Source: Pseudomonas sp. L5B5
GTDB lineage: Bacteria > Pseudomonadota > Gammaproteobacteria > Pseudomonadales > Pseudomonadaceae
Length of the DNA stretch: 64,000 nucleotides
NCBI RefSeq assembly: GCF_020520285.1
Contig: NZ_CP084742.1
Coordinates: 6,187,501 to 6,251,500 of the forward strand
Direction: 5' to 3'
A program made the translations under genes and the position numbers. This document shows positions 2,030 through 13,817 of this stretch, one piece after another. The number at the start of each line of letters is the position of its first letter. The first letter of the stretch is position 1. The notes beneath the pieces are model-generated. The model was not told where the DNA came from. It searched no databases and worked only from the letters and a program-made list of their open reading frames with translations.

Positions 2030-3013
<984 letters not shown>

Positions 3014-3025
3014 TCTCCCGCCCGC

Positions 3026-3514
3026 CTAGCACACCTCGGTGACAGTGAACTGTCGCCGGGTGCCGGCTACCACGATTTCCACCTCATTGTCTTCGAACTT
3101 GCCCAGCAGGCCCTGGCCCATGGGGGAGCGCGGGGTGATGACCGTCACCAGTTGCCCGACCACCTGGACCTTCAGGCCTGCCCCATCTGGACCGAGGAAC
3201 AGCCATTGTTCGTGGCCATCTTCGTCCTCCAGGCCCAGCAAGGTGCCGATCTGGATGCCCGATTGCGGGTTGTCGGAGCGCAGCACCAGGTTCTGCCAGA
3301 GGTTCAGGGCCTGGCGGATTTCCTCCACTCGTCGGGACTGGCCAGCCGCCAGGTACGAAGCCTCCAGCCCCAGGGTGTCATACTTGTTTTCGGCGACATT
3401 CTCTTCATGGGTTGCGGTTTCGTAGGCCGTTTGCGCTGCGCGCACGGCGACATCCAGATCGTCCTGAAGCTGTTGCAGGACTAATCGGTACACGGACTGT
3501 TTATTCATGGTCAA
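3026..3514 (-). CDS. GreA/GreB family elongation-factor-like protein
   Basis: A 162-residue protein with the two-part plan of Gre factors: an N-terminal acidic coiled coil (about residues 10-75, rich in Ala, Glu and Gln) and a C-terminal FKBP-like domain with ITPRSPMGQGLLGKFEDNEVEI, the Gre C-terminal signature region (SP.G.aLlG...gd.v). Canonical GreA/GreB reactivate backtracked RNA polymerase through acidic residues at the coiled-coil tip. The tip here (ENVAENKYDTLGLE) keeps acidic residues, so cleavage factor activity is possible but not certain. It is not the main GreA. ATG codons at 3514 and 3508 are both possible starts. The gene overlaps the upstream membrane protein by four bases, so the two are probably translated together. 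Confidence 0.75.
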   Translation of the reverse strand: MTMNKQSVYRLVLQQLQDDLDVAVRAAQTAYETATHEENVAENKYDTLGLEASYLAAGQSRRVEEIRQALNLWQNLVLRSDNPQSGIQIGTLLGLEDEDGHEQWLFLGPDGAGLKVQVVGQLVTVITPRSPMGQGLLGKFEDNEVEIVVAGTRRQFTVTEVC

Positions 3515-3906
3515 TTACAGAATTGCAGGACATTGGCCCGACTCTTTTCGCTCGGCGCGTTCTGGTCTTGCTGCAGCCAGAACTGGCATTTGGGATTGGC
3601 CAGGTTGCGCGGGTTGCTGCGAGCGTTATCCAGGGTCTGCAGTTCCTCGTTCTTGCGCAGATTCTCCTGGTATTGCTCGAACAGGCGGTTGGGCTGCTCG
3701 GGAGTGGTCATGGTGGGTTGAGTCAGTTGTTGCACTGCCTGGGCAATGGGTGCCAGGTGCGGGCTGGGCAGAAAGCGCAGTGCCAGCCAGCAACTCAGGA
3801 CAATTGCCAGGAACCCCAGCCACAGGCCCAAGGCGATGCTGCCGCTGAGCGCCAGGGCATTGAAACTGATGCGCAGCGAGCGACGGGCGGGCGGATGATG
3901 CGGCAT
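3511..3906 (-). CDS. Small membrane protein of unknown function
   Basis: A 131-residue protein that I do not recognise. It has a basic N-terminus, one clear hydrophobic segment (about residues 18-45, GSIALGLWLGFLAIVLSCWLALRFL) and then a polar, Gln/Asn-rich tail likely in the periplasm, with two cysteines near the C-terminus (PKCQFWL and QFCN). The layout suggests a single-pass inner-membrane protein. A ribosome site (AGGAGGC on the coding strand) precedes the start. Its stop overlaps the start of the Gre-like gene, so they form a two-gene operon; no functional link is obvious. Confidence 0.6.
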   Translation of the reverse strand: MPHHPPARRSLRISFNALALSGSIALGLWLGFLAIVLSCWLALRFLPSPHLAPIAQAVQQLTQPTMTTPEQPNRLFEQYQENLRKNEELQTLDNARSNPRNLANPKCQFWLQQDQNAPSEKSRANVLQFCN

Positions 3907-4030
3907 GGTTGCCTCCTGGCGGGCAGTGTTGAGCGAGAGCCGATTGTCGCACGAAGATTAATCGAGGTTGGCCCTTCTGCGCTGGAGCATTTATGCGGAC
4001 AATCGGCGCCTTTGCCAATCGGGGACTGGA

Positions 4031-5164
4031 ATGAAAGCCTCCTGGGACATTTTTTGCAGCGTGGTCGACAACTACGGCGATATCGGCGTGACCTGGCGCC
4101 TGGCCCGGCAACTGGTGGCCGAGCATCACTGTGCGGTGCGCCTGTGGGTCGATGACTTGCGCGCATTCGAGCGGATCTGCCCGCAGATCGATATCCGCCA
4201 GGCTTGCCAGCAACAGGACGGGGTCGAGGTCCGGCACTGGCCGGCCCAATGGCAGCCGGAGACCGCTGCCGATGTGGTGATCGCCGCGTTCGCCTGCCAG
4301 TTGCCCCATGTCTATATGGAAGCCATGGCCGATCGCCAGCAGCCTCCCCTGTGGCTGAACCTGGATTACCTGAGCGCCGAGGATTGGGTCGGCGGCTGCC
4401 ATGGCCTACCCTCGGTGAAGTTCCGTGGCGTGCAGAAGTACTTCTTTTTCCCCGGGTTCCAGCCGCAAACCGGCGGACTGTTGCGCGAGGGCGGGCTGCT
4501 GGCGCAGCGCCGGGCGTTCCAGGCGGACGGCCAGGCTCGGGCGGCATTTTTGCAGGCGCTGGGGGTAATGCCTGCCGCGGGTGTCCGGTTGATGTCGCTG
4601 TTCGCCTACGAGAACGCCGGCCTGGGCGGCTGGCTGGACGCCTTGGCCTGTGATCTGCACCCGACCCACTTGCTGGTGCCCGAGGGGCGTATCCTGGGCG
4701 ATGTGCAACGCTGGCTGGGCGTCGATTCGCTGGCGGTGGGCAACCTGCAGGTCCGCCAGTCGCTGACGGTGCAAGTCCTGCCGTTCATCCGCCAGGAGGA
4801 CTACGATCGCCTGCTGTGGTGCTGCGACTTCAATGCGGTACGGGGAGAAGACTCGTTCGTGCGGGCACAATGGGCAGGGCGGCCGATGCTCTGGCACATC
4901 TATCGCCAGGATGAAGACATCCACCTGGACAAGCTCGAGGCGTTTCTGGCGCTGTATACCCGAGCCCTGTCTCCCGCAGCCAGGGCGGCGGTCCAGGCGT
5001 TGTGGCGGTCCTGGAACACCGAGGCGCAGATGGCCGAAGCCTGGGGAGAACTGCTGCTGCACTGGCCGGAAGTCACCGCGCATGCCGAGCAATGGTGCCT
5101 GGAACAGGGCTCGCAGGTCGATCTTGCTGCGGCGCTGGTACAGTTTTACCTAAATTGGATATGA
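4031..5164 (+). CDS. earP: EF-P arginine rhamnosyltransferase EarP
   Basis: A 377-residue inverting glycosyltransferase (GT-B fold, family GT104) that transfers rhamnose from dTDP-rhamnose to Arg32 of elongation factor P, which is needed for EF-P to rescue ribosomes stalled at polyproline. The N-terminal WDIFCSVVDNYGDIGVTWRLARQL is diagnostic; it contains the Asp residues needed for catalysis (DNYGDIG). The C-terminal half has LPFIRQEDYDRLLWCCDFNAVRGEDSFVRAQWAG, the dTDP-rhamnose pocket with the conserved RGEDS. The start is the ATG before KASWDIF; upstream in-frame codons would add 21 non-conserved residues. It sits directly before efp, its substrate gene. Confidence 0.95.
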   Translation: MKASWDIFCSVVDNYGDIGVTWRLARQLVAEHHCAVRLWVDDLRAFERICPQIDIRQACQQQDGVEVRHWPAQWQPETAADVVIAAFACQLPHVYMEAMADRQQPPLWLNLDYLSAEDWVGGCHGLPSVKFRGVQKYFFFPGFQPQTGGLLREGGLLAQRRAFQADGQARAAFLQALGVMPAAGVRLMSLFAYENAGLGGWLDALACDLHPTHLLVPEGRILGDVQRWLGVDSLAVGNLQVRQSLTVQVLPFIRQEDYDRLLWCCDFNAVRGEDSFVRAQWAGRPMLWHIYRQDEDIHLDKLEAFLALYTRALSPAARAAVQALWRSWNTEAQMAEAWGELLLHWPEVTAHAEQWCLEQGSQVDLAAALVQFYLNWI

Positions 5165-5165
5165 T
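5160..5165 (+). promoter_or_regulatory. Probable -10 element for efp (TATGAT)
   Basis: A TATGAT hexamer overlaps the last codons and stop of earP, 48 bases before the efp start, and is followed by the GC-rich start region seen at many Pseudomonas promoters. No good -35 is visible at 17 bases. It suggests that efp can be transcribed separately from earP, which fits the large need for EF-P. Confidence 0.35.
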
Positions 5166-5212
5166 ACGCGGCCTAGATTTTTGTCAATCCCATCCAAATT
5201 CGGATATTCGCA

Positions 5213-5785
5213 ATGAAAACTGGTAAAGAACTCAAACCCGGTACCGTGATCCGTATCGACAACGATCCTTGGCTGGTTCAGAAAGCTGAATTCACCAAGT
5301 CCGGTCGTAACAGCGCGATCATGAAGACCAAGCTGAAGAACCTGTTGACCGGTTACAAGACCGAAACCGTGTACGGTGCGGACGACAAGCTGGACGACGT
5401 GATCCTGGATCGCAAAGAAGCGACCCTGTCGTTCATCAGCGGTGACTCCTACACGTTCATGGACACCACCGACTACACCATGTACGAGCTGAACGCTGAA
5501 GATATCGAAGCCGTTCTGCCGTTCATCGAAGAAGGCATGACCGACGTTTGTGAAGCCGTGTTCTTCGAAGATCGTCTGGTTTCCGTTGACCTGCCGACCA
5601 CCATCGTGCGTCAGATCGACTACACCGAAGGTTCCGCTCGTGGTGACACTTCGGGCAAGGTGATGAAGCCTGCCAAACTGAAGAACGGTACCGAGCTGAG
5701 CGTTGCGGACTTCATCGAAATCGGCGACATGATCGAGATCGATACCCGCGAAGGCGGTTCCTACAAAGGTCGCGCCAAGGTTTAA
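5213..5785 (+). CDS. efp: Translation elongation factor P
   Basis: A 190-residue EF-P with KOW-like domain I and two OB domains. EF-P binds between the P and E sites of the ribosome and promotes peptide bonds at consecutive prolines. The loop residue that is modified is Arg32, in KSGRNSA, the hallmark of the EarP/rhamnose type rather than the lysine type. This agrees with earP immediately upstream (48 bp). Codons are strongly biased toward preferred ones (GAA, CTG, CGT, ACC), as expected for an abundant protein. A strong terminator follows. Confidence 0.98.
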
Positions 5786-7027: not shown

Positions 7028-7978
7028 TCAGCCCATGGCGCTTTGCAGTGCCAGGTCCCAGGGAGGAATCGGGCTGAACCGGCTCTTGAGGTACTCCAGC
7101 AGCAGGCGACTACGGGCATTGGGGTGTTGCTCCATGCGCAGGGCGTAGATGCCGGCGGTTTCCGGCTTGGGCAAACCGCTGTCGCAAAACAGTGGCACCA
7201 GTTCCCCGCGCAACAGATGTTCACTGGCCAGCCAGGTCGGCAGGTGAGCTATGCCCAGGCCGGCCAGGGCGCCGGACAACAGGGCCTCGGCATTGTTGGC
7301 ACTCAAGCGGATCCGTTGCGGGCGATGGTTCTGCAACTGACCGTCGAGCTCGAACCGCCAGGCGAACAGCGGTGCCAGGCCATCCCAGTCGAGGCCGTCA
7401 TGTCGTTCGAGTTCGCTCGGGTGGCTCGGGGTGCCGCGGCTCTTCAAGTAGGCCGGGCTGGCGCAAGCGATGCGCACGATGCTGGCCAGCGTCGTGGCGA
7501 CCATGCGGGTATCCACCTGCTGCCCGGCTCGCAGTACCAGGTCGACCTTGCCCAGGTGCGAGCCCTGCATGTCGATGAAGCTGTCGATCAGGTGCAACTG
7601 CACGTCCAGGCCCGGATAGAGCACCAGGAAATCGGCGATGGCTGGAGCCAGGTGGCGACGCCCGAAGGCTGCGGGGGCGTCGATGCGGATCAGGCCCTCC
7701 GGCGCATGGCTCAAGGACACCGCCTCGGCCCGGGCCAGTTGCAGCTCCGCGACGATGCGCCGGGCCCGTTCGGCGAATGCCAGGCCCGCGGCGGTGGCCA
7801 CCACCGCGTGGGTGGTACGCATGAACAAGGTCGTACCCACGGCTTTTTCCAGGCCGTCGATGCGTCGGGCCACGGCCGAGGGGGTCAAGGGATGGCGGCG
7901 GGCGGCGGCGGAGAAGCTGCCGGCCTCCAGCACATCGAGAAACAGTCCGAGTTGTTCAGTGAGGGCATTGGGATTCAT
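7028..7978 (-). CDS. LysR-family transcriptional regulator
   Basis: A 316-residue LysR-type regulator. The winged helix lies near residues 10-65 (SAAARRHPLTPSAVARRIDGLEKAVGTTLF); the effector domain follows with the usual LIDSFIDMQGSHLGKVDLVLRAG and GLGIAHLPTWLA blocks. It belongs to the large CrgA/DmlR-like subgroup. The divergent neighbour 106 bp away is the TauE/SafE exporter, so that gene is the likely target; this is inference from arrangement. The start MNPNALTEQ is chosen because the longer frame enters the divergent promoter region. Confidence 0.85.
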   Translation of the reverse strand: MNPNALTEQLGLFLDVLEAGSFSAAARRHPLTPSAVARRIDGLEKAVGTTLFMRTTHAVVATAAGLAFAERARRIVAELQLARAEAVSLSHAPEGLIRIDAPAAFGRRHLAPAIADFLVLYPGLDVQLHLIDSFIDMQGSHLGKVDLVLRAGQQVDTRMVATTLASIVRIACASPAYLKSRGTPSHPSELERHDGLDWDGLAPLFAWRFELDGQLQNHRPQRIRLSANNAEALLSGALAGLGIAHLPTWLASEHLLRGELVPLFCDSGLPKPETAGIYALRMEQHPNARSRLLLEYLKSRFSPIPPWDLALQSAMG

Positions 7979-9678: not shown

Positions 9679-9760
9679 CATCAAACCCTGAGATGTTTAG
9701 GCGGGAAGCATTCTTGTGCTTGATCTTATGCTGCGCAGGACACCGCCGCCATTACTGGAG
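9679..9760. promoter_or_regulatory. LysR-type intergenic site, copy A
   Basis: Holds CATCAAACCCTGAGATG (an ATC-N9-GAT dyad of LysR-box type) and, starting 30 bases later, CATTCTTGTGCTTGATC, then a GCAGGACACCGCCGCCAT stretch and TGGAG. Each element has a diverged counterpart in the same order in copy B upstream of the DUF1127 gene. It abuts the start codon of the LysR gene, so it is probably that gene's own control region. No gene starts here on the plus strand. Confidence 0.6.
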
Positions 9761-9801
9761 CATGGACAGGCGATCAAGGGCATGGCCGCTGGCGTGTCCA
9801 T

Positions 9802-10371
9802 TCATGCCGGCTGCTGTGACGACAGCCAGGCCAGCACCTGTTGCGGGTTCCGATCAGGAGGGAATACCGGATAGAACAGGTGCTCGATCTGCCCATCCTT
9901 GATCACCAGGGTCAGGCGTTTGAGAAATCGCCTGCCATTGAGCTCGAACTCCGGCAAGGCCAGGGCCCGGGTCAGTTGCCCCTGGGCATCGGACAGCAGG
10001 GGGAAGGGCAGGTGGAGCCGTTCGACGGCTTCACGCTGATAGGCACTGTCCTGGGTGGACAGGCCGAACAGTCGGTCCACCCCGGCCAATGCAAGTTCCC
10101 GGGCATGTTCCCGGAAGGCACAGGATTGCGGAGTGCAGCCACGGGCACCGGGAGTGATGTCCCAGCCCTCCAGCAATGGCATGTCTGGCCGGCCTGTGCG
10201 CGGATAGATATACACCACCGTCCTGCCTGGCAACGCCGACAGATCCACGCTCTGGCCAGTGGTCGAGGGCAGGGACAGCTCGGGCATCTGCAGGCCGGAC
10301 AAGTGCCGAGCCGCACCGTCATCCTGGGGCGCCGGGATGCTCGACCAGTCCACGTTCAGCATGTCTCTCAT
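9802..10371 (-). CDS. Peroxiredoxin, PrxQ/BCP-like
   Basis: A 189-residue AhpC/TSA-family protein. The core VVYIYPRTGRP...DITPGARGCTPQSCAFREH corresponds to the PrxQ/BCP active site: peroxidatic Cys in GCT and resolving Cys five residues later (C-T-P-Q-S-C). It should reduce hydrogen peroxide and alkyl hydroperoxides with thioredoxin in the cytoplasm. The spelling PGARGCT instead of the usual PGCT is an insertion typical of a divergent subgroup. The ATG start has a GGAG ribosome site at good spacing. It is transcribed away from the peptide operon and belongs to the block that separates the LysR gene from DUF1127. Confidence 0.8.
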   Translation of the reverse strand: MRDMLNVDWSSIPAPQDDGAARHLSGLQMPELSLPSTTGQSVDLSALPGRTVVYIYPRTGRPDMPLLEGWDITPGARGCTPQSCAFREHARELALAGVDRLFGLSTQDSAYQREAVERLHLPFPLLSDAQGQLTRALALPEFELNGRRFLKRLTLVIKDGQIEHLFYPVFPPDRNPQQVLAWLSSQQPA

Positions 10372-10735
10372 CGCTAGTGCTCCATGGCTGTGCTGGGATG
10401 CGATTGCCGTGTCGTCGGTTCCGGCAACTGCATGTCTGGTTATAGGCGCTATTGCTTCGCCACGCCCGTGACCGGGAGTGAGTTGCAGATAAGAGTTTCG
10501 CAATAGTTGCTATCAGGCTTGGATATAAGTAGATGGTTTAGTTGCTTTTGTTGGCTATAGGATTTGTTGGCTTAATTGCCTGTGGCGATAAAAATTAGTC
10601 AGTGGCAGATAGCCCGATTAATGGTGGTGTTTATTGTTCCTGGAGTTTGCCTAAAGCAATATCCGCTACTAGTGTTCGTTTGCCATGTACAGATGGTCTG
10701 TACTGGGATTGTGACCAATTTTGGAGGGTCCTTTC
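10372..10735. other. Divergent intergenic region between prx and the peptide operon
   Basis: 364 bases with clearly lower G+C than the genes around it (notably 10,500-10,690). It must carry promoters for the peroxiredoxin on the left and the peptide operon on the right. No further reading frame is convincing. The notable element is the near-start dyad listed separately. No clear -35/-10 pair could be chosen by eye. Confidence 0.6.
10687..10703. promoter_or_regulatory. Perfect dyad GTACAGA-TGG-TCTGTAC before the peptide gene
   Basis: Two perfect 7-base inverted arms around a 3-base centre, 32 bases before the peptide start codon. Its size and position, between promoter region and ribosome site, fit an operator for a dimeric repressor. 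It does not fit the lux box, LexA box or OhrR pattern. Without a T-run and with an odd 3-base centre, a terminator or strong RNA hairpin is less likely. The regulator is unknown. Confidence 0.55.
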
Positions 10736-10903
10736 ATGAGCGCGAAAGCGGAACATACCGAACCAACTAACGTGGAACTTACCCAGCTCAAGGCGAAGCT
10801 CAAGGCCGGCAAGTTGGCGCCAGAAGACCTCAAGGCCCTGGTCGGCCTGGTGGAGCGTACGGAGAAGGCGGCCAAGCAACTTAGGGCAGCCATCGTCGAA
10901 TAA
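10736..10903 (+). CDS. 55-residue peptide, first gene of the HDO operon
   Basis: A short gene with a strong ribosome site (TTTTGGAGGG) 9 bases before ATG. The product is 55 residues, Lys/Glu/Ala/Leu-rich, without Cys, Trp or signal peptide: a charged N-terminus followed by an amphipathic helix-forming part (LTQLKAKLKAGKLAPEDL and LVGLVERTEKAAKQLRAAIVE). I do not recognise the family. The spacing to the next gene is only 33 bp with no terminator, and that gene has a similar TTTGGAGGG leader, so the peptide is probably co-expressed with the oxidase. It could be a scaffold or precursor peptide, or a small partner protein; the sequence alone does not decide. Confidence 0.65.
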   Translation: MSAKAEHTEPTNVELTQLKAKLKAGKLAPEDLKALVGLVERTEKAAKQLRAAIVE

Positions 10904-10936
10904 CCGACGCTAACGCTTTGGAGGGCGGGATCAGAA

Positions 10937-12808
10937 ATGGAAATCACTACTCGGAACAATCATGTTGATGTATCTGAACCATTGCGTAGCCCTCCATTTT
11001 TAGCGCGAAGTACCCTTGGCAATCATTCGGTGCTGTTGTTGGGAAGCCTCGAAGCACCCATTTCGACACTGAGCGATAATGCCGCATTTACCGAACGACT
11101 TGCCCAGAGTCTCAACTTGTCGACGCTGGGCAGCCACTTCAGTGCGGAAGAGTTCATCTTGTTGCTCGGCGAGCAATATACCGCCGCCGAAGAGTTCGTT
11201 TATGGTCATCCCATCTGGAGAAAGATCCGCGAAGGCGATCAATCCGCCTTGTATGCCTATCTGCTGGAAACCCGGCATTACCTGGCCGCCGCTGCCTCCA
11301 GGATGTGTCCTGCGGTGAGCCCGGGCATCGGCTTGTCGCCCATCACGCTGATGCTCTCCAGGCATGCGCTGGAGGAATGGGATCACGCGCAATTCTTCAA
11401 CGACGCGCTGGGGCTGATCGGGTGCTCGAACGACATGGTCAGGTTGGCCAGGCCCTTGCCGGCGACGCTGGAGTGGATTCACCTGTCCCGGCAGATCGCG
11501 GCCATGGGCGAGTTGGTGTCGGCGGCGTGTTCCGGCTTCATGGAGCATTCCTCGGTGGAGAAGGAAGCCGTGCTCGGCTGGCACGATCTGCTGGTGGGCC
11601 ACAACCTGCTGAGCCGCCTGGCAACCAATAAAGTCCTGGGACACTTTTCCACCGACCTCGAGTACGGGCACTCCGAGAACTGGAAGAAAGCAGTCCGTAC
11701 CCAGGACTGCCACCCCGCATCGGTCGTGGCCACGGTGCTCAATACGGTGTGCAGCCTGAGCGAGATGATCTATCGCTGGTTGTCCGCCCTCGAGCAGGGC
11801 TGCGCCAGTTCGATTGTCACGGCGGCTCAGGTCATGGCCGAGGACGGTCTGGACCGGCCACTGCACGACCCGGATTCGCCGCTGGAGGTGGGAATCTTCC
11901 AGGGGCTGCCGGTCTGGCCGGCCAGCGTGATGAGCCTGGTCAATGGCGAGCGTTCCGGCGAGGACAATCCGTCGGACATCATCGTTGCTTCCTGTTATGC
12001 CCTGGGGCATCGGGTGCCGCAGCTGGCGGCCAGTGGCGCCCCGTTCTGCCTGTTGCTGGACCAGATCCATGAACAGCTGGTCGATGGCCAGGACACAAGC
12101 GCCGACAGTGTCGCGGCCATCGAAAGCATGACCACGGACTGGCTGGTGTCCGTGGACGGCCATCCGTTGTGGCAGCAGATGACCGAGGGCTGCAGTGACG
12201 AACTGGTGATCGGCTACATGCTGGAGAACTTCCATTACCTGGCCTCGGCCACCCGGCACGTCAGCCCGGCGATCGCTGCCTGCCAGGATGCGCGGATCCG
12301 GGAGAACCTGTTGCAACACCTGCAGGATGAGCTCACCCATTGCGACATCCTCAAGCCCCGGCTCAGGGAGCTGGGTGTCAGGCAGCCGACGGCTATGCGC
12401 CCCTTGCCGACTACCGCGGCCTTCGTCGGTTATCTCAGCGACCTGGCACGGCATGACTGGAAGGGCTACCTGATCGGCTCGACCTACCTGCAAAAAAGCC
12501 TCAGCGAATGCCGTGGAGATGATCGCCACATGAAGTTCTATTCCCGGGTGTCGGCCAATAATCCACGCTGTGCCGCGCTGCTTGGCGCCATGGCCGCCCA
12601 CGATGAGCTGGACGACGAGCTGGGGCATGACCTGCGACCCTCGCGCAATATCCAGTACCTTTTGGCGCGGGGCGAGGTGAGCCGCGACTCCGTGGCGCGT
12701 GCGGCGATGTTGCCATCGATGGCCTGGAGTTTCCTGGATGGCATTCGCGCGCACTATGGCTCAGGCAAGGATTCGGTGCTGCAGCGCCAGGCCTGGAGCG
12801 CCAAATGA
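10937..12808 (+). CDS. Tandem haem-oxygenase-like di-metal oxidase (iron-containing redox enzyme family)
   Basis: A 623-residue soluble protein built from two similar halves of the haem-oxygenase-like/TenA-PqqC fold (Pfam PF14518 type). Half one has GHPIW (90-94), ETRHYL (111-116), H143-x2-E-E-x2-H150 and H236-x3-D240-x-E242-x-G-H245. Half two repeats GHPLW (408-412), ENFHYL (430-435), H461-x2-D-E-x2-H468 and H555-x3-D559-x-E561-x-G-H564. These are the ligand-bearing helices of di-iron members, which do N-oxidation, C-C cleavage or desaturation. Both halves keep them, except that acidic residues just before GHPIW (E85/E86) are not matched in half two. The substrate is unknown. The stop overlaps the next start (ATGA). 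Confidence 0.75.
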   Translation: MEITTRNNHVDVSEPLRSPPFLARSTLGNHSVLLLGSLEAPISTLSDNAAFTERLAQSLNLSTLGSHFSAEEFILLLGEQYTAAEEFVYGHPIWRKIREGDQSALYAYLLETRHYLAAAASRMCPAVSPGIGLSPITLMLSRHALEEWDHAQFFNDALGLIGCSNDMVRLARPLPATLEWIHLSRQIAAMGELVSAACSGFMEHSSVEKEAVLGWHDLLVGHNLLSRLATNKVLGHFSTDLEYGHSENWKKAVRTQDCHPASVVATVLNTVCSLSEMIYRWLSALEQGCASSIVTAAQVMAEDGLDRPLHDPDSPLEVGIFQGLPVWPASVMSLVNGERSGEDNPSDIIVASCYALGHRVPQLAASGAPFCLLLDQIHEQLVDGQDTSADSVAAIESMTTDWLVSVDGHPLWQQMTEGCSDELVIGYMLENFHYLASATRHVSPAIAACQDARIRENLLQHLQDELTHCDILKPRLRELGVRQPTAMRPLPTTAAFVGYLSDLARHDWKGYLIGSTYLQKSLSECRGDDRHMKFYSRVSANNPRCAALLGAMAAHDELDDELGHDLRPSRNIQYLLARGEVSRDSVARAAMLPSMAWSFLDGIRAHYGSGKDSVLQRQAWSAK

Positions 12809-13704
12809 ACCGGCCCTACTTCCAGACGGTGCAGCCCCTGGCGCGCCTGCATGAGTTGCTGTTCGAGCAGGACGACTTCGATGCACTGGCCAGGCGCCTG
12901 CCGGAACCGCGAATGCCGCTGGCCATGTGGCGCGATGTATTGCACAGCGAGTTGCTGGGATTGTTCCGCTGGGCGCTGATCCGTGCCAAGGAGGGGCTGG
13001 CTGAGCCACATGGCCAGGGCTACGGCGAGGAAGTCCTGTGCCTGCTGCCCTACTATGGTTTCTGCCTGCACGCCATTCGCCGTGCGGTGCCGTTCGCGTT
13101 GATGGGCATCCCCACCACGGTGTCTGTGCGTGACGATCGATACCAGGAGGCCTGCGCGGTCATTGCCGAGCTGGCGATCCTGCTCGATGTGCAGGACTGG
13201 CTGCAGGTCAGCGATCAGCCATCGGCGAGCCTGGTCAGGCAGTTCCATGATCGGGCCGGGCTGATCGTGCTCACGGGCAAGCAGGCCACGTATGCCAACC
13301 TGCGCAGTGCTTATCCGGAGGCCCGGATCATTGGCGCCACGGGCTGCTGCGCCGTGGTCATGGCAGTTCAGGAAGAACCGGCGCGGCTGATCGAAGAGCA
13401 GCGCAGGCAAGGCCGGCTCTCGGTCAGTTGCAGCAATCACGGTCACACCGTCCTCGTCGAAGCATTGGCTCCGGGTGCGGCGGTGCTGGCCATCGACGGT
13501 GCCAGGCCGGCGACCGGCAGCACGGTGCAGGAGGTACTCGGGCAATTGCATCCATCCATCGTCCTGGCACCGTCGTCGACCACGACGTTGCCCGATGACC
13601 TGGGTGGCTACAGCGTGCTGGCATGGGACGGTGCCACTTCGGCCAGCCTCGACGGTTTTGGGCGGGATCCGCTGGGTGGCTGGCCGGGGGATTACCGGCT
13701 CTGA
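12805..13704 (+). CDS. Short aldehyde-dehydrogenase/acyl-reductase-like protein
   Basis: A 299-residue protein whose family is uncertain. The middle reads like the catalytic half of the ALDH/LuxC superfamily: PFALMGIPTTVSVRDD (95-111) as a cofactor-strand analogue, IVLTGKQATYANL (154-166) like the ALDH 'tGs' turn, ARIIGATGCCAVVMA (173-187), and SVSCSNHGHTVLVE (206-219), where C209 would be the nucleophile. It is 150-200 residues shorter than usual ALDHs, and a long N-terminal part (1-90) is unlike them. If it is an ALDH-like enzyme, it could make or use an aldehyde or thioester connected with the oxidase. It is translationally coupled to the oxidase by ATGA. Confidence 0.45.
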   Translation: MNRPYFQTVQPLARLHELLFEQDDFDALARRLPEPRMPLAMWRDVLHSELLGLFRWALIRAKEGLAEPHGQGYGEEVLCLLPYYGFCLHAIRRAVPFALMGIPTTVSVRDDRYQEACAVIAELAILLDVQDWLQVSDQPSASLVRQFHDRAGLIVLTGKQATYANLRSAYPEARIIGATGCCAVVMAVQEEPARLIEEQRRQGRLSVSCSNHGHTVLVEALAPGAAVLAIDGARPATGSTVQEVLGQLHPSIVLAPSSTTTLPDDLGGYSVLAWDGATSASLDGFGRDPLGGWPGDYRL

Positions 13705-13732
13705 GGCAATATCGGATGGCGCAGGGATGATC

Positions 13733-13817
13733 CATCAAATTCTGAGATGCAGGATATAAGAAACATTCGTTGGATTGATCATTGGCCCCGGCAGACACTG
13801 TCGTCATCCCACAGGAG
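13733..13817. promoter_or_regulatory. LysR-type site, copy B, with DUF1127 leader
   Basis: CATCAAATTCTGAGATG, then 31 bases after its start CATTCGTTGGATTGATC, then GCAGACACTGTCGTCAT and the AGGAGG ribosome site of the DUF1127 gene. The order and spacing match copy A upstream of the LysR gene about 4 kb left. As it stands directly before DUF1127, this copy is probably the working promoter of that gene. Confidence 0.6.

Follow-up and report, generated by a model that had tools for sequence, protein, structure and literature searches.

A short peptide with a near-invariant C-terminus, encoded beside a tandem haem-oxygenase-like oxidase in Pseudomonas sp. L5B5, as a putative substrate of that oxidase

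Haem-oxygenase-like dimetal oxidases (HDOs) form a large superfamily, about a dozen members of which have been functionally validated (PMC13108848). Five structures of 3H/3C HDOs with bound substrate show the substrate itself as a ligand of Fe1 (PMC13108848). The tripeptide substrate of the HDO MboA is oxidised at its C-terminal Arg (PMC13185094), and deletion of varO leads to the loss of the dehydrogenated forms of thiovarsolin, a ribosomally synthesized and post-translationally modified peptide (RiPP) (PMC6511847). The closest published system found, judged by analogy, is that of gvgB, a small Lys-rich open reading frame (ORF), and gvgC, which encodes a haem-oxygenase-type domain; both are required for 4-formylaminooxyvinylglycine (FVG), and their roles are unexplained (PMC8067088, PMC8064604). 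Here we describe a module of four genes in a 64-kb stretch (the window) of the 6.81-Mb genome of Pseudomonas sp. L5B5, in which a gene for a 55-residue peptide directly precedes that for a tandem HDO. The peptide is a plausible candidate substrate of this oxidase.

The features concerned are listed below, with coordinates given as positions within the window. L-numbers are the labels of collected loci and G-numbers those of genomes; loci of the same genome were counted once.

10736..10903, plus strand: gene for the 55-residue peptide (sequence)
10880..10900, plus strand: near-invariant C-terminal heptad LRAAIVE of the peptide (73 homologues)
10937..12808, plus strand: gene for the tandem HDO, 623 residues (46 homologues, motifs, fold)
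11138..11800, plus strand: HDO domain 1, residues 68-288, with conserved E111-x2-H114, E146/E147, H150 and H236-x3-D240-x4-H245
12104..12784, plus strand: HDO domain 2, residues 390-616, with conserved E430-x2-H433, E465, H468 and H555-x3-D559-x4-H564
12805..13704, plus strand: gene for a shortened protein of predicted aldehyde dehydrogenase (ALDH) fold, 299 residues
13429..13431, plus strand: Cys209 of the ALDH-like protein (S-C-[ST] motif), a candidate catalytic thiol, invariant in 19 sequences
13654..13692, plus strand: conserved C-terminal motif GF..DP..(G)WPGD of the ALDH-like protein
9802..10371, minus strand: gene for a redoxin (AhpC/TSA type, motif GCTPQSC; Pfam Redoxin, E 5e-19), divergent from the peptide operon
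10372..10735, no strand: divergent intergenic region with presumed promoters and a TTTGGAGGG leader before the peptide gene (sequence)
9690..13800, no strand: insert, approximate limits, between the genes for LysR (5' end 9677) and DUF1127 (13824) (comparison with relatives)

An encoded short peptide beside a presumed modifying enzyme, as in RiPP systems, was found at 11/11 distinct oxidase loci from several phyla, with the peptide gene directly upstream of the oxidase gene in every case. These loci comprise the window, L046, L047 and eight confirmed among 80 pattern matches in a contig scan (three Pseudomonas, Rhodospirillales, a record labelled Melainabacteria, Mycolicibacterium komossense, Streptomyces malaysiense and Gemmatimonadaceae). 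The peptide of L019 and L047 is a 33-residue form. In addition, 17 of 46 oxidase clusters share their longest-contig size with a peptide cluster, and are probably on the same contig, although a few of the short sizes could coincide. The original prediction, made from the sequence of this DNA, had proposed that peptide, oxidase and ALDH-like protein act as one system, and the adjoining peptide gene at all full-length oxidase loci with upstream DNA agrees with this; the single-system idea is well supported, and a redoxin belongs to the unit as well.

The C-terminus of the peptide is its most distinctive part. A profile built from seven peptides recovered 73 homologues among 1363 candidates, 67 of which end in LRAA[IV]VE (heptads: LRAAIVE 56, LRAAVVE 11, LRAALAE 2, LRGGIVE 2, LRAPVVK 1, IRAAIVE 1). 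Counted from the end, position -1 is Glu in 72/73, -2 is Val in 71/73, -3 is Ile in 59, Val in 12 and Leu in 2, and -6 is Arg in 73/73. A regular expression for this ending matched 27 of 23,987 reading-frame ends in the collected loci (overlapping loci being counted more than once), and all 27 were the peptide gene. The peptide is under strong purifying selection among four Pseudomonas copies: across six pairwise comparisons, its ratio of non-synonymous to synonymous substitution rates (dN/dS) lies at 0.05-0.10, and that of the oxidase at 0.06-0.12. Helices are predicted at residues 12-24 and 29-53 in an AlphaFold 2 (AF2) model, with moderate to low confidence. The peptide profile matched only the own genome among 99 Pseudomonas genomes, and the peptide has no match in Pfam or NCBIfam. 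Two other roles were considered and rejected. Metal chelation was dismissed, the window peptide being devoid of Cys and its one His not being conserved. Amino-group carriers of the LysW type have an EDWGE tail and zinc-binding Cys; such a carrier does not fit the LRAA[IV]VE tail found here or, again, the lack of Cys.

The oxidase has 46 homologues, at 37-99% identity. Pfam places TENA_THI-4 in its C-terminal half, and a PDB sequence search returned one weak TenA-type match. An alignment of 32 homologues revealed similar motifs, of the kind that provides metal ligands, twice along the protein: E-x2-H, a helix-2 E-x2/3-H, and H-x3-D-x4-H. An AF2 model of a read-through peptide-oxidase fusion (mean predicted local distance difference test score, pLDDT, 86; predicted template modelling score, pTM, 0.86) contains two HDO-type domains, and the closest solved folds to both are CADD, PqqC and TenA fold proteins. 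In the alignment underlying this model, the variable N-termini of some distant oxidases misalign over the peptide. Both halves of the oxidase are thus predicted to have the haem-oxygenase/TenA-type helical fold. PDB searches with profiles A1 and A4 gave weak or meaningless matches.

The string H-x3-[DE]-x4-H is present in 13/17 related HDO domains or proteins, the exceptions being three HDOs of L025 and a 324-residue protein of L024 whose status as an HDO is unconfirmed. It is present in 1/30 control PF14518 loci; in the frame chosen, 18 of these show H-x3-[DE]-x2-H and 12 neither string. Since 12 of the 17 related domains or proteins also contain the shorter HxxxDxxH-type string, usually as their helix-2 motif (e.g. 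HALEEWDH), it is only the longer string that discriminates.

Comparison with relatives delimits the genetic unit. The upstream LysR protein was used to search 149 Pseudomonas genomes, and five loci whose LysR proteins are 90-93% identical to that of the window (L118-L122) were picked. The spacing between LysR and DUF1127 is 93-96 bp in 5/5 of them; no redoxin, peptide, oxidase or ALDH-like match was found across 17 kb in these loci, and an oxidase search of their genomes gave no match. In the window, L013, L014 and L015, all four genes lie between LysR and DUF1127. The unit is therefore redoxin, peptide, oxidase and ALDH-like gene (about 9690-13800), present or absent as a block, and the redoxin is counted in the module because the four genes are missing together in the 5/5 relatives. 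The three plus-strand genes had originally been described as a tightly spaced row with similar ribosome leaders. The positions were verified, as was the 33-bp gap between peptide and oxidase; the oxidase and the third gene share an ATGA (12805-12808), and the TTTGGAGGG leader lies upstream of both the peptide and the oxidase genes. The three-gene unit initially proposed holds as one row of genes, but omitted the divergent redoxin at 9802-10371. No plus-strand terminator-like site was found between 9700 and 14100, in agreement with the earlier claim that no terminator separates the genes, and no sigma-70-like site was found in the divergent intergenic region; the scan is weak evidence on both points, as terminator-like and promoter-like sites were not more frequent than in shuffled sequence.

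The redoxin appears to be of a type specific to such HDO clusters rather than a generic neighbour. The copies upstream of the operon in L013-L015 are 78-84% identical to that of the window, and those of other HDO clusters are 45-51% identical (L021 51%, L022 51%, L023 46%, L024 45%, L047 46%). Some redoxin match was obtained in 34/57 genomes (own genome included), where only the own gene was strong; the other matches listed had E values of at least 2.8e-7 and at most 38% identity. The two-Cys pattern was detected in L013 and L047 and in none of L021-L024.

The 299-residue third protein has no match in Pfam or NCBIfam. A predicted model and a fold comparison agree with the initial description of this protein as ALDH-like, and an ALDH fold is supported at this level. 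A PDB sequence search returned only eight matches, all to designed or hallucinated TIM barrels, and these were judged spurious.

The module is rare and scattered. A full-length oxidase was found in 3/298 Pseudomonas genomes, in 2/398 genomes of the phylum (own genome included), in 2/249 of the family of Streptomyces genome G686 (G686 included), in 1/246 of the phylum of Mycolicibacterium genome G687 (G687 itself) and in 1/248 of the family of G332 (G332 itself). In L046, a Bradyrhizobium-like copy (positions noted: 2485-5374 and 7417-7689), transposase-like ORFs (identified by eye) flank the module, the third-position GC of which is low. Horizontal transfer is suggested by these features together with the scattered occurrence. 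Two more genes, for proteins of 454 and 502 residues, lie upstream of the module in L046.

The neighbourhood varies between hosts. In L047 (Streptomyces G706), redoxin, peptide, oxidase, ALDH-like protein and a TauD-type dioxygenase are encoded in a row on one strand, together with an MFS-like protein (by eye) and a protein that matches TatD below the threshold. Also in L047, a chorismate-binding and glutamine amidotransferase fusion is encoded directly upstream of the peptide (10422-12341, minus strand). MFS genes accompany the module in L017 and L019 (Pfam), and in L019 (Streptomyces malaysiense) an NHLM-type exporter subunit (TIGR03797; 3820-7707) lies directly upstream of the peptide gene; it is possibly an exporter for the module, or else an unrelated neighbour. 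The early observation that no PEARL enzyme, protease or exporter adjoins the genes holds for the inserted block; it does not extend to the module elsewhere, which is accompanied by exporter-type genes. An ATP-grasp ligase-like gene lies near the module on the opposite strand in Mycolicibacterium (L018).

Distant, partial oxidase matches were obtained in 11 genomes (six from the Pseudomonas search, one from the phylum, two from the Streptomyces family and two from the G332 family). In 10/11 of them, a short peptide ORF was recognized by eye upstream of an HDO gene, with a C-terminus common to its family; none was recognized by eye in L038 (G820). Peptides of 59-61 residues ending in GVIVK precede two HDO genes in L021, L022, L049 and L050, and in L021 and L022 a redoxin accompanies them, as do genes judged by eye to be aminotransferase-like and ALDH-like. 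A 68-residue peptide ending in SVIVR is encoded directly upstream of an HDO of about 495 residues in L023 (8174-8380, minus strand) and L024 (6956-7162, plus strand), two near-identical loci that also encode the 324-residue protein and the same type of redoxin. Lys-rich 35-residue peptides ending in RPILMA[AS]HL are found near HDO genes in L025 (8983-9090, minus strand), which has a row of three HDO-type genes, the third under the Pfam cut-off, and in L026 (6848-6955, plus strand). Finally, peptides of 22-25 residues ending in [AT]TCG lie directly upstream of an HDO in L030 (2187-2255, minus strand) and L052 (7758-7832, plus strand), which belong to different phyla. The HL and CG families consist of two sequences each, and SVIVR of the two near-identical loci. 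A [GS]VIV[KR] ending occurs at 16 of the 23,987 frame ends (again with overlapping loci), all in these clusters. The N-terminal half of the window oxidase best matches the first HDO of the two-gene systems; for the C-terminal half, the second HDO is best only in L021, the first being equal or better in L022, L049 and L050.

The N-terminal domain of some of the related HDOs may resemble a RiPP recognition element (RRE), a domain that is common, though not universal, in or beside RiPP-modifying enzymes. A profile of ten HDO N-terminal stretches (eight from the GVIVK systems, two from L025) matched best the first residues of MusD (E 0.0011), followed by a HEAT protein, YhgG, LynD (0.027) and many winged-helix regulators, with PbtF at 0.18; the matched segments of MusD, LynD and PbtF are RREs. 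Single fragments of L050 and L049 matched PqqD (E 0.078) and a winged helix (0.0015), respectively, both below the cut-off.

In the reading that we favour, and for which we consider the case evenly balanced, a ribosomal scaffold peptide carries the synthesis of a small metabolite derived from an amino acid, and the HDO oxidises the C-terminal Glu of this peptide. The tandem HDO would recognize the helical part of the peptide, and the free C-terminal Glu, held by LRAA[IV]V, would enter the dimetal sites. A free C-terminal carboxylate is attractive in this role because substrates ligate Fe1 in HDO structures and because MboA oxidises a C-terminal residue. One or two O2-dependent oxidations of Glu55 or of its Val/Ile neighbours may be catalysed by the two HDO domains, each perhaps responsible for one step. 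Candidate chemistries include desaturation, hydroxylation and an UndA-type loss of the side-chain carboxyl, any one of which is, by itself, unlikely; in the UndA-like case, the product formed from Glu would, as a guess, be vinylglycine. The ALDH-like protein, which has a conserved Cys, would act on an aldehyde or acyl product where its gene is present, and the redoxin may either clear peroxide from uncoupled O2 activation or supply reducing power. A housekeeping peptidase would then free the product, which could be exported where a transporter gene is present. The last residue varies (Glu, Lys, Arg) behind a similar IV, as would be expected if it were the building block. More broadly, the encoded C-terminal residue (Glu, Lys, Arg, HL or CG ends) may define a class of HDO-modified scaffold peptides, from which it is clipped off as a non-proteinogenic amino acid; such a class would also explain gvgB/gvgC. 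We hold this wider proposal tentatively, as rather more doubtful than probable, and its probability was raised slightly because L023 and L024 carry a peptide ending in SVIVR.

Several observations weigh against oxidation of the peptide by the HDO. The fusion model does not support docking of the C-terminal Glu in an active site: within the peptide, confidence is moderate only for residues 11-30 (block pLDDT 74-77), and the C-terminal part falls from a pLDDT of 59 to 26. The helix-3 HxxxDxxxxH spacing is unlike the HxxxDxxH type of the control HDO loci, so canonical metal binding, by three His and three carboxylate ligands, is not assured, and the origin of the tandem protein as a fusion of an HDO gene pair is not settled by comparison of its halves. 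No recognizable RRE was found in the window oxidase, for which profile A9 gave no PDB match and the N-terminal and linker fragments had no Pfam match at E<=10; in the related HDOs, the RRE-profile matches are mixed with ordinary winged-helix regulators. The accompanying genes are not constant either. The redoxin is present in only 5/11 module loci (the window, L013, L014, L015 and L047). The ALDH-like gene follows the oxidase in 9/11 (the contig of L020 stops inside the oxidase gene) and is absent from L016 (Rhodospirillales), a 6.3-kb contig with both peptide and oxidase; this locus identifies the peptide-oxidase pair as the core. No protease or exporter gene was found in the inserted Pseudomonas block.

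A rival view takes the peptide for a lasting regulatory or structural subunit of the oxidase, with a tail that inserts close to the active site and gates O2 or substrate; a free small molecule would then be the true substrate. Strict pairing and helical conservation along the whole peptide agree equally well with such a subunit, and the four inserted genes include no protease. We nevertheless judge this explanation unlikely, as precursor recognition is suggested by the RRE-like domains of some related HDOs, and the linked peptides of related clusters look unrelated by eye (22-68 residues) yet have family-shared C-termini (two to four sequences each), which a common gating role would not need. 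The peptide might instead be a carrier, with an amino acid or amine joined to the C-terminal Glu in a pearlin- or LysW-like manner and the HDO acting on the attached group. The fixed Glu would suit this arrangement, as would the ATP-grasp ligase-like gene close to the module in Mycolicibacterium, on the opposite strand, and pearlin assembly takes place at the C-terminal end of a carrier peptide (PMC9303977); none of the four genes inserted in Pseudomonas, however, belongs to a ligase-type family, and we rank this possibility behind the subunit, as unlikely too. PF04738 has no match in the own genome, and none in the control genomes either.

The remaining alternative places the oxidation on Ile/Val, the C-terminal di- or tripeptide being excised as a cofactor or peptide metabolite, for which mycofactocin offers an analogy. 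Positions -2 and -3 are nearly as fixed as -1 (V 71/73; I 59, V 12, L 2), IV also stands before the final residue of the GVIVK and SVIVR peptides, and the core is kept over several phyla. The module is, however, rare and patchy (3/298 Pseudomonas genomes, 2/249 in the family of Streptomyces G686), which is not the pattern of a cofactor in broad use, and this outcome appears decidedly improbable.

No description of the module was found in the open-access literature searched, most subscription-journal papers lying outside this scope. The solved chains of CADD, PqqC and TenA fold proteins have one such domain, whereas the oxidase described here has two; we know of no partner peptide for these proteins. 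Among characterized HDOs, VarO resembles the module oxidase in belonging to a RiPP cluster, in which it is a proposed dehydrogenase, but the thiovarsolin pathway is of the YcaO/TfuA thioamide type, with repeated cores, and the timing of VarO action is left unclear in the paper (PMC6511847). MboA of the mangotoxin pathway similarly targets the side chain of the last residue in a peptide, but this tripeptide is made by ATP-grasp ligases and the full reaction requires a dedicated reductase, MboB (PMC13185094). The likeness to the pearlins (TglA/TglB, TmoA/TmoB) is that there an amino-acid-derived product is assembled on the C-terminal end of a ribosomal peptide that serves as carrier (PMC9303977). 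They differ in that no PEARL or DUF692 family is found in the four inserted genes and the C-terminal residue would here be encoded rather than loaded. If our preferred reading is correct, carrier-peptide biosynthesis would extend to pathways without a tRNA-dependent loading enzyme, and the tandem HDO with its near-invariant peptide tail provides a directly testable candidate substrate.

Among 30 PF14518 loci of 3.5 kb each, drawn from many more listed matches, none was recognized to have a Lys-rich ORF beside the HDO gene. The own genome has five PF14518 (Haem_oxygenas_2) matches, one of which (L081) was among the loci scanned. The gvgB-gvgC pair of Pseudomonas fluorescens WH6, compared by description rather than by sequence, resembles the module in having a small ORF adjoining a haem-oxygenase-domain gene. 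The gvg cluster also needs the esterase-like gvgA, the carbamoyltransferase gvgF, an aminotransferase and more, none of which is in the inserted block, and the module is not a gvg cluster because these other genes are missing. It nonetheless supplies a hypothesis for the puzzle of gvgB in the formation of FVG, a herbicidal amino acid.

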